DNA from: a virus | Length of the DNA: 25,275 bases | Virus record (IMG/VR): IMGVR_UViG_3300030450_001062 | Coordinates: 1-25,275 of that record | Reading direction: 5' to 3' (one strand) | Shown here: piece after piece, positions 11,542 through 17,372 of the stretch | How the letters are laid out: each line of letters begins with the position of its first letter | Position numbering within the stretch: position 1 is the first letter of the stretch | The notes under the pieces: generated by a model | Databases searched by the model: none | Seen by the model: only the letters and a program-made list of their open reading frames with translations | What the model was told of the DNA's origin: nothing | Program-made: the position numbers and the translations under genes

Positions 11542-13674
11542 TTATATATATCTATTCATTCCGATTTCTGCTTTTTCACTTGATAAAACAATATCCTGTC
11601 CCGATAAATTTCCAATAACATTAACTTTGTTTCCGCGATTTGACAGAATTTGTTCTAGTTTAGACAATGGAGCAATAACCTCAGGATCATTAAGTGCATT
11701 AGGATTATCACCAACAATTGCATGTGTTGGGCTAAATGCTAATGCTCCCTTTGCCATTGGAATTGGTTCCGCCGCAATTGTTGCAATTTGCGCACCACCT
11801 ATTATTGCAGCTAATGACATCATGAAAGGATCGGGGATTGCTTTTGTTATTCCCGCCGCTGTGTTAATGATAGCATCAAAAATTGCAAATCTTTTTTGAC
11901 TTTTCGCCGCTTTAATTTGTAGTGCCTTTCTTGAATTTTCATATCTTCGATCCAGTTGTTCTTTTCTTTTATTGAATTCATCAGCGGATAATGCTTTATT
12001 TTCTAGAACTGACAGTTCTTTATTATATTCATTATCCAATGCGATCATTCTATTATTGTGACCCTGTTGAAATACCGAATTTAAACCAGCTGAAATTTGT
12101 GATGCATTTCCAATAAAATGATCCATGACTTGCGCCGTATTTTTTCCCCATGCTTCCCATTCCTTGTCTTGATTTGCAAAAAATTTTTGCCATATTGATG
12201 TGGGTGGATCATCACTCCCACCACCAGGATCAAAAGTTGAAAAACCACCCCTTTTTGTGCTAGTGGTAGTGGGCATTGGAATTGATGCACTACTAAAAAT
12301 ATTTTTTAATTTATTTACCGCATCATTCCCCATTTTAGCTATTTGATCAACACCATCTTGAATATCATCTTCATTTATATATTCAATTTTTTCATCTGAA
12401 AAGGCTTTTGAAAAATTATCCTTTGCATCTTGACCTGTTTTGGTAAATACATCAATCCAGGATTTAGACATATCATCCAACCCTTCAGTGAATAAATCCC
12501 AGTCTAATGTGAAAATCCCCATCAATGATTTTCCAAATCCTTTCATCATTTCCCAAGTTGATAAAACCGCATTTCTCATTGCATCAAAAACGGTTTCAAC
12601 AACTAGACCAATTGATTGTAATATTCGACGAAAGGCTTTAGATTCATTAAATAAATCAATCCATGCATTGATTGTGTTTGTAATCCATTTTTTTGTTATA
12701 TCCCAGTTTGTTATTATTGCCGCTGTTACTAAAGTAATTGCAGAAACAACTAAACCAATAGGTGATAATAATAATCCAAATGCACCAACTAATGATCCTA
12801 AAAATGTTAATAATGGTCCCGAGATGGCAATTATTCCACCAATAGCCATGATCCAGTTTTTAGTGCTTGAATCTAAATTCCTAAAAGATGTAATTAAATT
12901 ACTTATCCCATTAACCATTGATGCCGCAATAGGTAGTAATATTTGACCGAGTTCAACCGCTAAATCTTGAATTCTACCAATAACAATTCGTGTTTGATTT
13001 GCAAAACTTCCAGATGTTCTAGCAAAATCACCTATAGCTTTAGAACTTTGATCGGTGGCAATTTCTAAATTTGCTAATGCTTTAGCCTGTAAAAGTGAAA
13101 CATTTTGATTTTCTTGAATTTGTGAAACTCGATCTTTATATTCTTTTGTGCCTTGTCTTATAACAATTCCAAGTGCCTTCGCGGATTCCGTTTCACCGAC
13201 TAATGCTTTTGTTAATGCTTTTGATGCACCTTCTGCACCACCTTCAAAATTAGCAAAAGATGCCAGATCAACTGCCAGTCGATTAACTTGTTCAGATAAT
13301 GATAATGCCGCATCTTCTTGAAAACCGAATCCAACTAATAAATCACCCGTATCACTTAATAGTTTTTTTGATGCAACACTCGATAATCCAAATGATTCTT
13401 TAAATGTTTGAGCGGTCTTTTCAGCTTCCAAAGAAATACTAGAAAATACAGTTTTAAATTTTGCATCAGTTTCTTCAAAATCAGATGCCATTTTTACTGA
13501 TGCCGCTCCAATTGCAGCAAATGGTAACGTGAAAGATGTGGTGATTGATGCACCAACTGCTTTCATTCTAGTAGCAAATTTTTGAATTCTTGCGGATGCT
13601 TGATTCAATCCTTTATATAATCCCGTATTTACAACACCGAGAATGATGTTCATGGATGTATTGTTCCTAGCCAT
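11542..13674 (-). CDS. tail tape measure protein (710 aa)
   Basis: This protein has the tape-measure signature. An amphipathic N terminus carries FATRMKAVGASITTSFTLPFAAIGAASVKMASDFEE, a long helical region follows, and two or three hydrophobic stretches lie around residues 268-318 (IMAIGGIIAISG, FGLLLSPIGLVVSAITLV). A charged coiled coil near 540-590 precedes a conserved end (FSPTHAIVGDNPNALNDPEVIAPLSKLEQIL). It sets tail length, is held in the tube and may form the channel for DNA at the inner membrane. Using the usual 0.15 nm per residue, 710 residues suggest a tail near 105 nm. It follows the chaperone genes, the standard order. Confidence 0.93.
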   Translation of the reverse strand: MARNNTSMNIILGVVNTGLYKGLNQASARIQKFATRMKAVGASITTSFTLPFAAIGAASVKMASDFEETDAKFKTVFSSISLEAEKTAQTFKESFGLSSVASKKLLSDTGDLLVGFGFQEDAALSLSEQVNRLAVDLASFANFEGGAEGASKALTKALVGETESAKALGIVIRQGTKEYKDRVSQIQENQNVSLLQAKALANLEIATDQSSKAIGDFARTSGSFANQTRIVIGRIQDLAVELGQILLPIAASMVNGISNLITSFRNLDSSTKNWIMAIGGIIAISGPLLTFLGSLVGAFGLLLSPIGLVVSAITLVTAAIITNWDITKKWITNTINAWIDLFNESKAFRRILQSIGLVVETVFDAMRNAVLSTWEMMKGFGKSLMGIFTLDWDLFTEGLDDMSKSWIDVFTKTGQDAKDNFSKAFSDEKIEYINEDDIQDGVDQIAKMGNDAVNKLKNIFSSASIPMPTTTSTKRGGFSTFDPGGGSDDPPTSIWQKFFANQDKEWEAWGKNTAQVMDHFIGNASQISAGLNSVFQQGHNNRMIALDNEYNKELSVLENKALSADEFNKRKEQLDRRYENSRKALQIKAAKSQKRFAIFDAIINTAAGITKAIPDPFMMSLAAIIGGAQIATIAAEPIPMAKGALAFSPTHAIVGDNPNALNDPEVIAPLSKLEQILSNRGNKVNVIGNLSGQDIVLSSEKAEIGMNRYI

Positions 13675-13676
13675 TT

Positions 13677-14036
13677 CTATTTTTTATTATTTGATTCATT
13701 TATCTTTTTATATAGTAATGCTTCATTTTGTAATTTTTCAATTTCTTCACTACTTTTTATTTTCTTTTTCTTTTCCCATTCAAATCGTGTTATGTCTTTT
13801 GGTTGTATATTTTTTTTCACATGTGGATTTATTATTACGGATGCTAACCATCGCGCCCTTTCCCATTCATTTTGATTGTTAATTTCCCATTCATCAAATT
13901 TTCCTTTTTGTGCATTATAAAACATTGAGGGTGTTAAATCATATAATTCAACTGCATTTAAACCTAATTGTCCCAGCCCTATTTTTTCAACATATGCCCA
14001 GTCAAGAATTATTTCTTCTTGCTGGGATTCAACTTT
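13677..14036 (-). CDS. tail assembly chaperone, -1 frameshift extension (T-like part)
   Basis: Reading in the -1 frame from the slippery site at 14036 stays open for 119 codons to the stop at 13677. The translation contains EEIILDWAYVEKIGLGQLGL and ELYDLTPSMFYNAQKGK. The conserved-looking LTP(S)MF, WE and basic-tail features are typical of the T part of lambda-type G/GT chaperones. Joined to the 110 residues read before the slip, the product is about 229 residues. The extension would bind the tape measure during tail assembly, while the G part binds tube subunits. An internal ATG at 13925 would give only an 82-residue fragment and has no good leader. The gene is adjacent to the tape measure, as expected. 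Confidence 0.85.
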   Translation of the reverse strand, partial: KVESQQEEIILDWAYVEKIGLGQLGLNAVELYDLTPSMFYNAQKGKFDEWEINNQNEWERARWLASVIINPHVKKNIQPKDITRFEWEKKKKIKSSEEIEKLQNEALLYKKINESNNKK

Positions 14037-14042
14037 TTTCCC
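13997..14042 (-). promoter_or_regulatory. programmed -1 ribosomal frameshift signal
   Basis: On the minus strand the codons TCG-GGA-AAA-AAG create two overlapping in-phase slippery heptamers: G-GGA-AAA (14042-14036) and A-AAA-AAG (14039-14033). A 6-base spacer (TTGAAT) follows. Then comes an 11-bp stem in which CCCAG pairs with CTGGG and CAAGAA with TTCTTG, with one bulged A and a 7-base loop (13997-14026). The zero-frame TAA stop lies in the loop. This is the standard layout of the tail-chaperone frameshift, with A-AAA-AAG being the efficient bacterial dnaX-type site. Confidence 0.92.
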
Positions 14043-14365
14043 GATCCTTCTTTTTCATCAATTCCAAAAACCATCCCCATGTGATCCGCAAATAATTCCA
14101 TTGCAATTTGCATTCCTTTTTGATCACCATCTAAAAGATCACCAATATCATCTGATGTAAGATTAAAATCTACACCCGCTTTTCGATGTCCTTCTTGCGC
14201 TCCATAAAATATTAGTTCAACAATATCATCTAAACTCATTTCACTCCCTAATGTTCCTAATTTATGAAGGGATGTTCCTGTTGCTCTGCAATATTTACGC
14301 AATGCATTAAATCCAAAATAACATGGTAAATCTTTTTTACCTAATTTAATTATCTCATAATTCAT
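14009..14365 (-). CDS. tail assembly chaperone, zero-frame product (G-like)
   Basis: This 118-residue protein lies between the tail-tube genes and the tape measure, where lambda gpG-type chaperones lie. It begins MNYEIIKLGKKDLPCYFGFNALRKYCRATG, which resembles the N terminus of known tail assembly chaperones, and has a helical body with an acidic loop (residues 70-82). It ends in a Lys-rich tail (GSGKKLNPSKKK), part of which is translated from the slippery sequence. The lambda counterpart is 140 residues. Most ribosomes would make this short form; a fraction slip to make the 229-residue fusion. Both are usually needed in a set ratio and are absent from the finished tail. Confidence 0.88.
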   Translation of the reverse strand: MNYEIIKLGKKDLPCYFGFNALRKYCRATGTSLHKLGTLGSEMSLDDIVELIFYGAQEGHRKAGVDFNLTSDDIGDLLDGDQKGMQIAMELFADHMGMVFGIDEKEGSGKKLNPSKKK

Positions 14366-14378
14366 TTCATGTGTTTTT

Positions 14379-14477
14379 TTTAGTTAAAAATTAAATTAAA
14401 AGGTTTGGCAAAGGGCAAAATCCACATGAATGAATAATGCCCAGTGCTTTCACCTTATTTTTGTTGAATAGTTTCAT
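14379..14477 (-). CDS. putative 32-aa CxxC peptide
   Basis: This 32-residue ORF starts in a TAATG overlap with the stop of the second tail-tube gene and ends 14 bases before the chaperone start. It has a basic N terminus (KLFNKNKVKALG), the segment HSCGFCPLPN with a C-x-x-C pair, and a hydrophobic end (LFNLIFN). It fills a gap of 111 bases in which neither a terminator nor a promoter is evident. The precise junction argues for translation. A metal-binding or redox peptide, or a leader controlling chaperone translation, are options. Chance is possible at this length. Confidence 0.4.
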
Positions 14478-14911
14478 TATTGTGTTGTGATTGAAAGTTC
14501 ACCCGCAGCAATGAATGATGCCGAATATGTTGTTGATTGTTGATTTGGGGCATCTACACTAATTGCTGTTAAAATCGCATTTCCAGAAAAATATTTGTCA
14601 CCACTTACGCCACTACCAGTAGTCATGAATCTAACTAAAACAATCTTTCTTGCTTCAATATATTCTGTAAACATATCAAAAATTGAAACACGGGATCCAG
14701 TCACCGACATAAGAACAAAACCATCCGCAGTCATTTCCCAGTCGCGATCGCCTAACATACGCGTATTCCAACCATTAGAAATTGCATTTGTTGTATTTCT
14801 GTAATTGTTAGAAATTGATAAACTGCAAGATGTTCCATATGCCACCACTTCATTAAATGGACCAATTAAAATCTCAAATTTCGTTCCATTAACTATTCCA
14901 CTTGTTGCCAT
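14477..14911 (-). CDS. major tail (tube) protein paralogue B (144 aa)
   Basis: This protein starts MATSGIVNGTKFEILI and is β-rich throughout. It keeps the marks of the TP901-1/phi13-type tail tube family: S-I-S near 33, the R-D-W-E-x-T/S-x-x-G strand (residues 55-64), F-T-E-Y-I and the D-A-P-N-x-x-S-T-T-Y-S-x-S-F near the end. It shares these positions with the gene just upstream, so the pair arose by tandem duplication. It directly follows that gene without a gap. One copy may form the tube shaft while the other caps, decorates or mixes into it; which is the main tube protein cannot be told from sequence. Confidence 0.85.
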   Translation of the reverse strand: MATSGIVNGTKFEILIGPFNEVVAYGTSCSLSISNNYRNTTNAISNGWNTRMLGDRDWEMTADGFVLMSVTGSRVSIFDMFTEYIEARKIVLVRFMTTGSGVSGDKYFSGNAILTAISVDAPNQQSTTYSASFIAAGELSITTQ

Positions 14912-15355
14912 TTACGATGCCGCTTGAGTTAACGTAGATGTCCCAGTGAATGAACATGAATACGTTGTTGATTCTTCATTTGGTGCATCCATACTGATTG
15001 AACTTATATACGCTGAACCACTCCATTTAAAATCACCAGTTTCTGATGATTCAAAACTAATTGTGTATGTTCCACGTGTTGCAATATACGCGGTGAAAAG
15101 TTCATCAACAGTTGATCCAGATACTGCTGAACCCGCTAAATCCTTAAATGCAACCATTCCTTCAACAGAAATTTCCCAGTCTCTTTGACCTTCCATCACT
15201 TCCTTCCATCCACTAGATTCTTTATTTGATGTATCTCTAGTAGAATGATTGATTGAAATAGAGCCAGACGTTGCATAAGCCACCAGAACTGAACTACCAC
15301 TTGAATTATCATAAATCCCAAATTTCGTTCCATTTAAAATTCCACTTGTTGCCAT
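14912..15355 (-). CDS. major tail (tube) protein paralogue A (147 aa)
   Basis: This protein starts MATSGILNGTKFGIYD and shares the tail-tube signature with its downstream neighbour: S-I-S, R-D-W-E-I-S-V-E-G (57-65), F-T-A-Y-I-A-T-R, and D-A-P-N-E-E-S-T-T-Y-S-C-S-F near the C terminus. The family builds the hexameric rings of siphovirus tail tubes. Its Ser/Thr-rich surface loops are longer and more acidic than those of the second copy, with an insert near residue 72-80. It follows the decoration-protein gene. Being the first and more family-like copy, it is the better candidate for the main tube subunit, but this is inference. Confidence 0.87.
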   Translation of the reverse strand: MATSGILNGTKFGIYDNSSGSSVLVAYATSGSISINHSTRDTSNKESSGWKEVMEGQRDWEISVEGMVAFKDLAGSAVSGSTVDELFTAYIATRGTYTISFESSETGDFKWSGSAYISSISMDAPNEESTTYSCSFTGTSTLTQAAS

Positions 15356-15954: not shown

Positions 15955-16182
15955 TCAATTCACAATCCATCCATTTTCTGGATTGTTGATTATCTCTAAA
16001 ATTTCAGTATGTGAATAAATAGTTAACCCAGATAAAAAAGAAGGTGTTTCGCCATAAAATTTTAGAATAATACTTTCATTATTTAATGATGATCTTAATG
16101 TGTTTTCACTTGTTTCAATCACCTTATTAAAGTCAATTTCATTGACTTCAGCTTTATTATATATTACATATTTTATTTCCAT
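15955..16182 (-). CDS. hypothetical protein (75 aa)
   Basis: This 75-residue protein starts with a strand (MEIKYVIYNKAEV) and has an α/β pattern: D-F-N-K-V-I-E-T, then a strand S-I-I-L-K-F-Y-G and a final helix H-T-E-I-L-E-I-I. Acidic and hydrophobic residues alternate, and there are no cysteines. Its start overlaps the stop of the LamG-fusion gene by one base. It is translated between two virion genes, so a small structural or assembly role is likely, but nothing in it identifies a family. Confidence 0.6.
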   Translation of the reverse strand: MEIKYVIYNKAEVNEIDFNKVIETSENTLRSSLNNESIILKFYGETPSFLSGLTIYSHTEILEIINNPENGWIVN

Positions 16183-17372
16183 TATGGAACAATATTTTGT
16201 ATATCATTAGCCGCCATGTTAGTCATGGTAGCATTATTAGTATTTGAACTGTTATCATTAACAACTGGATATGCACCAGAATCACCCATTCGCCACCATC
16301 CTATCAAACCAGTATGTGATTCTAAATCTGTAGGTGATCCACCATTGTAAATTGCTAAAACTTGCGATGCTGATAATTCAATATCAAACAAAGACATTTC
16401 ATCAATATGTCCATTATAATATGATGCGCCTAAACCCATAAATCCAAAATTTAATGGTGCTGCCGTGTTTTCCATTGCAACATATGTTCCACTTGTTGTT
16501 GTTGATTGTGCTGGTGTAACCGCATCAACATATATTTTTATCCCAGTCGCAATGCCAGATCCATCATAGGTGCATACAATGTGATACCATGTGGAAATTG
16601 ATAATGGATTTGTTAATTCAGATTGTATATATGAAGATGCCGATGCATCCGCACATCTAAATCGTAAATCGCCACCACTAGAAAATCGACATTGATATTC
16701 TTGTATACTTGAACTAGAAGATTTTCCAAAAAGTGTCCCCCCACTTATTGATGCTGGTCTTATCCAAAATGACATTGAAAATGCTGAATCTGTCGTTCCG
16801 TTTCCAAAAGAAAAAATTGATTGATCCCCAACAGTTAAATAATCATCAACCCCATCAAATTGTATTGAATAAACATTTGCAAATGCTGGTGCAAAATCAG
16901 TATTTATAATTCTAACAATATATTCTTGAGTAAAATTATAAACCCCCTGCGGTTTAATTTTATGTTCATAATCAGTTGACATTCCATCATAAATGATTGA
17001 ATCTATTGTTGGACCAGAACCAACCACAAAACCAGATCCAATTCCCCTATCTAGTATTGTTCTGATTCTATTTGCTATTGTTACCCCAGTTGAATAATCT
17101 GTTGAAAATGAACTGATTTGAATCCTTACAATATCAAGTGGACTTCTTTGATTTGGTGTTCCACCAACAACTGGATTTCCATCATCCTGAGGACCTTTCG
17201 TGTTTGTTGGCGTTTGACTAATAATGTTATATGTAATATATGGAAATGTTTGTGCAATATTTAATGGAGCCACATCAGGAAAAATTCTAACAGGTGATGT
17301 TCCAATATAACCCGTTAAGGTAGCATCAGCGGCTAATTTAGAATATATAGTTGATCCAATTGTAAAACTCAT
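16182..17372 (-). CDS. tail terminator-like (DUF3168) protein fused to a LamG domain
   Basis: This 396-residue protein has two parts. Residues 1-155 match the DUF3168/tail-completion pattern: a short N-terminal helix (IGSTIYSKLAADATLTGYIG), V-R-I-F-P-D, F-P-Y-I-T-Y-N-I, an I-x-R-I-R-x-I-L helix and Y-I-V-R-I at the end. Such proteins cap the tail at the neck. From about 167 a concanavalin-like LamG fold follows: I-Q-F-D-G-V-D-D-Y-L, F-S-M-S-F-W-I-R-P, W-Y-H-I-V-C-T-Y-D-G and I-G-W-W-R-M-G-D-S. The normal family member is about 120-150 residues, so the lectin-like domain is an addition. It probably displays a glycan-binding domain at the neck. Neighbours are head-tail genes, which supports the first part. 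Confidence 0.82.
   Translation of the reverse strand: MSFTIGSTIYSKLAADATLTGYIGTSPVRIFPDVAPLNIAQTFPYITYNIISQTPTNTKGPQDDGNPVVGGTPNQRSPLDIVRIQISSFSTDYSTGVTIANRIRTILDRGIGSGFVVGSGPTIDSIIYDGMSTDYEHKIKPQGVYNFTQEYIVRIINTDFAPAFANVYSIQFDGVDDYLTVGDQSIFSFGNGTTDSAFSMSFWIRPASISGGTLFGKSSSSSIQEYQCRFSSGGDLRFRCADASASSYIQSELTNPLSISTWYHIVCTYDGSGIATGIKIYVDAVTPAQSTTTSGTYVAMENTAAPLNFGFMGLGASYYNGHIDEMSLFDIELSASQVLAIYNGGSPTDLESHTGLIGWWRMGDSGAYPVVNDNSSNTNNATMTNMAANDIQNIVP

Follow-up and report, generated by a model that had tools for sequence, protein, structure and literature searches.

Is the short ORF that ends at position 14009 followed by an unrelated second ORF, or are the two parts of one gene, read through by ribosomes that change frame just ahead of the stop? 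The question was raised by the window, i.e. the whole stretch of 25,275 nucleotides of viral DNA that was analysed, for which the original prediction was a programmed -1 frameshift. Judged from its sequence, the locus very probably encodes a tail assembly chaperone whose expression involves programmed -1 ribosomal frameshifting. Its elements are listed here, the clade being the window together with its ten close relatives.

14009 to 14365, minus strand: G ORF, read as the zero-frame tail assembly chaperone, 118 aa, from ATG 14365 to the stop TAA at 14011-14009 (PHROG, AF2/BFVD, ten relatives)
14036 to 14042, minus strand: overlapping heptamer G_GGA_AAA, in phase with the G ORF, present only in the window and in relative L002 out of the 11 clade members
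14033 to 14039, minus strand: slippery heptamer A_AAA_AAG, in phase with the G ORF, conserved slip site in 11/11 clade members
14027 to 14032, minus strand: spacer TTGAAT of 6 nt, from slip site to stem (5-7 nt in the relatives)
13997 to 14026, minus strand: predicted stimulatory hairpin, 11 bp with one bulged A (fold energy, arm-swap test, two-sided changes)
13677 to 14034, minus strand: T extension in the -1 frame, 118 codons plus stop, residues 112-229 of the fusion (PHROG 16333, of unknown function, E 1.1e-9; codon-position pattern)
13677 to 13925, minus strand: 82-aa ORF starting at ATG 13925, the C-terminal part of T, which ordinary gene calling would report

On the minus strand, the 3′ end of the G ORF reads GGA TCG GGA AAA AAG TTG AAT CCC AGC AAG AAG AAA TAA. 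Both heptamers of the original prediction, GGGAAAA (14042-14036) and AAAAAAG (14039-14033), are in phase there, with a run of 6 A at the slip site, and the predicted 6-base spacer follows (14032-14027). The 11-bp stem-loop with the zero-frame stop in its loop was recovered in full, plus one bulged A that had been left unmentioned: the 5′ arm covers 14026-14016, the 7-nt loop 14015-14009 and the 3′ arm 14008-13997, the TAA forming the end of the loop. Its energy of -14.5 kcal/mol compares with a mean of -5.9 for shuffled sequences (z -4.18), and 0 of 200 dinucleotide shuffles folded as well. Heptamers of the pattern XXXYYYZ, Y being A or T, occur in phase 115 times across the 35 ORFs of the window (7,623 codons). 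Only two of them have a fold below the threshold of -12 kcal/mol in the 45 nt downstream, and both lie in the G ORF, 21-24 nt before its stop. The heptamer-plus-hairpin signal exceeds chance. Scans of the window for tRNA and Rfam families gave no matches.

The -1 frame has no stop from 14054 down to 13679-13677. A -1 slip gives a G-T fusion of 229 aa, the length announced in the original prediction, with the predicted junction ...SGKK/VESQ...; judging from the codons, a slip on either heptamer would give the identical protein. The short product of 118 aa and the frameshifted one of 229 aa would share their N-terminus. The phage, an uncultured one, probably makes two versions of a tail assembly protein, by means of a small share of ribosomes slipping back one base. 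The majority of ribosomes would read G to the stop at 14009, whereas a minority, stalled at the hairpin while two tRNA-Lys occupy AAA AAG, would move one base backwards on A_AAA_AAG and bypass the zero-frame stop to produce GT. By analogy with phage lambda, G and the G part of GT would coat the tape measure protein, T would recruit tail tube subunits, and the G:GT ratio would control tail assembly.

Relatives were collected in two IMG/VR scans with the G and T parts, which yielded 10 distinct ones besides the window. At the protein level they are 66-80% identical to the window in G and 54-68% in T. In every one of them T matches in the -1 frame of G and AAAAAAG is in phase, 18-24 nt ahead of the G stop; these are the two features on which the original prediction had staked itself as far as related phages go. 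The hairpin starts about 5-7 nt past the slip site and has the G stop inside its loop, again in 10/10. The A run is of 6-8 A in the clade, always with AAAAAAG in phase. The second heptamer did not fare as well. GGGAAAA overlaps AAAAAAG in the window and in L002 only, the nine other relatives having AAAAAAG alone at the site, and the doubled heptamer, which had been put forward as the source of an unusually strong signal, finds no support in this role from the clade. With 2 occurrences among 11 members, GGGAAAA may be incidental. A joint requirement for the two heptamers is ruled out on the same count.

Hairpin arms folded with their own partner gave a mean of -14.1 kcal/mol, against -9.9 with the arms of relatives, and only 1 of 20,000 permutations was as good. 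Among the five members of equal length, two-sided changes were seen at two hairpin pairs, one of which is A-U, C-G or G-C depending on the member. We concluded from both results that the arms co-vary, the sequence changing while pairing is kept. The structure is weak by energy in three relatives (L003, L005 and L009), where it folds no better than shuffled sequence, and the hairpin may be weak or dispensable in these. No conserved upstream element that could act as a 5′ Shine-Dalgarno stimulator was found at the slip sites of the clade. A further A9T run is present in L003, L005 and L006, about 15 nt upstream of the A6G slip site. A -1 slip on this run leads at once into a stop, and the run could be left over from the A9 type described below, or be due to chance.

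Could the -1 product arise from slippage of the RNA polymerase on the A run, rather than from the ribosome? Transcriptional slippage is cited for runs of more than 7 A (PMC3711429), and it needs neither a given codon phase nor a hairpin downstream. What could plead for it is found in distant relatives, which carry A9 runs without hairpin in any codon phase; moreover, T is in the +1 frame in one A9 clade and in one A8 phage, a position that suits polymerase slippage. In the window, by contrast, the run is A6, below the approximate limit of 7 A or T, and throughout the clade AAAAAAG is in phase and accompanied by the co-varying hairpin. With a run shorter than those cited, and phase and hairpin both conserved, we find transcriptional slippage quite improbable at this locus. 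Ribosomal frameshifting agrees with what the clade has in common, namely an in-phase heptamer in 11/11 members, a hairpin, apparently maintained by selection, about 5-7 nt downstream (5-9 nt being expected of a stimulatory structure), and a -1 frame that is open and constrained.

This last point bears on whether T is a gene of its own. The first ATG, GTG or TTG of the -1 frame in the window is ATG 13925, 36 codons past the slip, and at this ATG begins the 82-residue ORF that had been predicted to appear as an orphan. The existence of such an ORF would fit a T gene translated after G termination from its own start, either this ATG or a non-canonical codon upstream. When the relatives were compared over T codons 9-35, which lie upstream of any canonical start in the window, differences numbered 68/54/129 at codon positions 1/2/3. 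This pattern indicates that T is under protein-coding constraint in the -1 frame from the slip up to the first codon that could serve as a start, and the codons upstream of ATG 13925 are kept as protein in all relatives. A separate T is thus at odds with conserved coding that reaches about 35 codons upstream of the ATG, where the window has no canonical start, and with start codons of the relatives' T that share no common position. Both observations favour continuous reading from G. The 82-aa ORF is probably not a separate gene, and an independent start for T appears extremely unlikely. Internal initiation of T was likewise rejected, no common start codon being found upstream of the conserved coding. 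The missing Shine-Dalgarno motif upstream of T is not evidence either way, since SD-like motifs are rare upstream of all window genes.

We then considered what the protein may be. The genes on either side are the following.

11542 to 13674, minus strand: tape measure protein, next gene downstream (PHROG tape measure families, best E 1.3e-22)
14477 to 14911, minus strand: tail tube / major tail protein 2, upstream (PF06199 Phage_tail_2, PHROG 1407)
14912 to 15355, minus strand: tail tube / major tail protein 1, upstream (PF06199 Phage_tail_2, PHROG 1407)

The order is therefore tail tube, G/GT, tape measure. The G protein matches PHROG 2115 'tail protein' (E 2.9e-4). Its AlphaFold2 model has a pLDDT of 83, and a Foldseek search of BFVD with it returned as best match a 'Tail assembly chaperone protein' (E 3.5e-5), followed by several more, this similarity resting on predicted models and annotated names. 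The model of T is poor (pLDDT 64). No match was found in a fold search of the PDB, nor in a Pfam search with G or with the fusion. Gene order and the similarity of the modelled G fold to annotated tail assembly chaperones point to a gene of the G/GT type, as do the short and long products deduced above. The lambda arrangement that had been claimed is thereby borne out by T in the -1 frame of ten relatives, by the tail tube and tape measure flanks, and by the chaperone-like fold predicted for G. Two tail tube-like proteins, both PF06199, stand in tandem within this one genome. Further upstream, at 16182-17372 on the minus strand, a tail terminator-like protein (PHROG 347; PF11367 near the cut-off) has a laminin G / concanavalin A-like lectin domain (PF13385, E 1.1e-22) fused to its C-terminal end.

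The finding is correct and well supported, frameshifted tail chaperones being a well-known trick of tailed phages. In phage lambda, the G/GT slip reportedly takes place on G_GGA_AAG. As in the window, a short zero-frame protein is extended in the -1 frame by a slip a little ahead of its stop, tail tube and tape measure genes flank the gene, and the frameshift is conserved while the protein sequence diverges (for the lambda arrangement see Xu, Hendrix and Duda 2004 and the review PMC5009743). Unlike lambda, the window clade has A_AAA_AAG as conserved slip site and a conserved downstream hairpin with the stop in its loop, and no Pfam-level sequence similarity was found. The slip heptamer is identical to that of Escherichia coli dnaX, where -1 frameshifting uses A_AAA_AAG and a hairpin (PMC3711429, PMC5009743), also a few bases downstream. 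dnaX differs in having an upstream Shine-Dalgarno-like stimulator and in that its frameshift product is the shorter one, whereas the window clade has no conserved 5′ element, and the genes of the window are almost never preceded by SD-like motifs.

The 'tape measure chaperone' of Bacillus phage Silence (KT001912) is annotated as a joined CDS, with a distant T domain in the -1 frame and a matching gene order, but its slip site is CCCAAAG directly before the stop, and identity is 38% over 58% of T. Homologues of T also precede the tape measure gene in Cellulophaga phage phi39:1 (gp19/gp20) and Bacteroides phage Bacuni_F1 (genes 5/4). These differ from the window, phi39:1 having an A8 run with T in +1 and Bacuni_F1 an A9 run with T in -1. 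In the records of phi39:1, Bacuni_F1 and GBK2 the T homologues are annotated as separate hypothetical proteins, and the present locus would similarly be entered as a pair of short ORFs with no link between them. Once the signal is recognised, the correct product of 229 aa follows, and the chaperone can be named in a group that has no Pfam match.

A wider survey, covering 178 distinct loci, was made with a T profile, which gave 248 matching stretches in one scan and more in others. Of these loci, 173 have T in the -1 frame of G (172 scored by script, and L231, -1 with an A10 run, by hand). An error of sequencing or assembly that breaks up a single G-T ORF, as might be feared from error-prone short homopolymers, is a negligible prospect given this identical -1 relation in so many loci and in the ten close relatives, and is refuted barring a shared systematic error. 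In the five remaining loci T is found in +1 (or -2) relative to G. Four of them (L230, L236, L254 and L302) have A9-G before TGA, L230 and L236 forming a well-supported A9 pair on the tree, and the fifth, L019, is phage phi39:1 with its A8.

Two main types of site emerged. In-phase A7-G sites (43 loci, mean fold z -1.7) and A6-G sites (14 loci, mean fold z -1.25) frequently have hairpins. The A9 runs, in about 90 loci once L003, L005 and L006 are set aside, are without hairpin (mean z -0.4 to +0.7 in the main groups) and are spread over the three codon phases (5, 64 and about 21 loci). Compared over 20 clusters of the short-run types and 26 of the A9 types, the median fold z was -1.18 against -0.04 (Mann-Whitney p 5e-4, an optimistic value, since clusters made at 80% identity are still related by descent). 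In the GC-rich loci, which amount to 199 kb, 48 A9 runs mark the chaperone and three other A/T runs reach a length of at least 9, many of these loci being close relatives. Mapped on a tree of 55 representatives, the A9 label has to change 8 times, and well-supported branches force at least 5 of these changes. Exceptions to this division are L049 and L058 (A6-G without hairpin), the A8 runs, L306 and L310 (GGGAAAC), and L288 (a T7 site).

A run of A9 without hairpin, in any phase and leading to either frame, is what transcriptional slippage is expected to look like, which suggests that it operates at the A9 sites of these related tail chaperones. Alternatively, ribosomes may slip there on A_AAA_AAA. 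Distant relatives thus seem to reach the same outcome as the window by a different kind of slip, and this is the newer point of the analysis. It is conceivable, at somewhat short of an even chance, that a single chaperone family has switched repeatedly in the way its second frame is reached, between ribosomal frameshifting (A6/A7-G with hairpin) and probable transcriptional slippage (A9, hairpin-free, independent of phase, with one clade in +1). A parallel exists: passages of PMC3711429 (citing Larsen 2000 and Baranov 2005) and of PMC5009743 describe switches between the two mechanisms in dnaX and IS elements. There too homologous genes arrive at one product either through A_AAA_AAG with a hairpin or through A9, the genes being dnaX and transposases, unlike the tail chaperones. 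The literature that we found describes phage tail chaperones solely in terms of ribosomal frameshifting, and within its incomplete coverage we found no published report of transcriptional slippage in one of them. The related natural sites, A6/A7 with hairpin versus A9 without, form a set that could serve to test how slippage by the ribosome is traded against slippage by RNA polymerase.

As to the host, two scans of genome contigs revealed no relative, and INPHARED no near phage. The window has a GC content of 30%, and SD-like 4-mers were found upstream of 1/34 of its genes, versus 4/34 in the control. Bacteroidota are poor in Shine-Dalgarno motifs (PMC8710568), and the scarcity of such motifs in the window suggests a host from this phylum.
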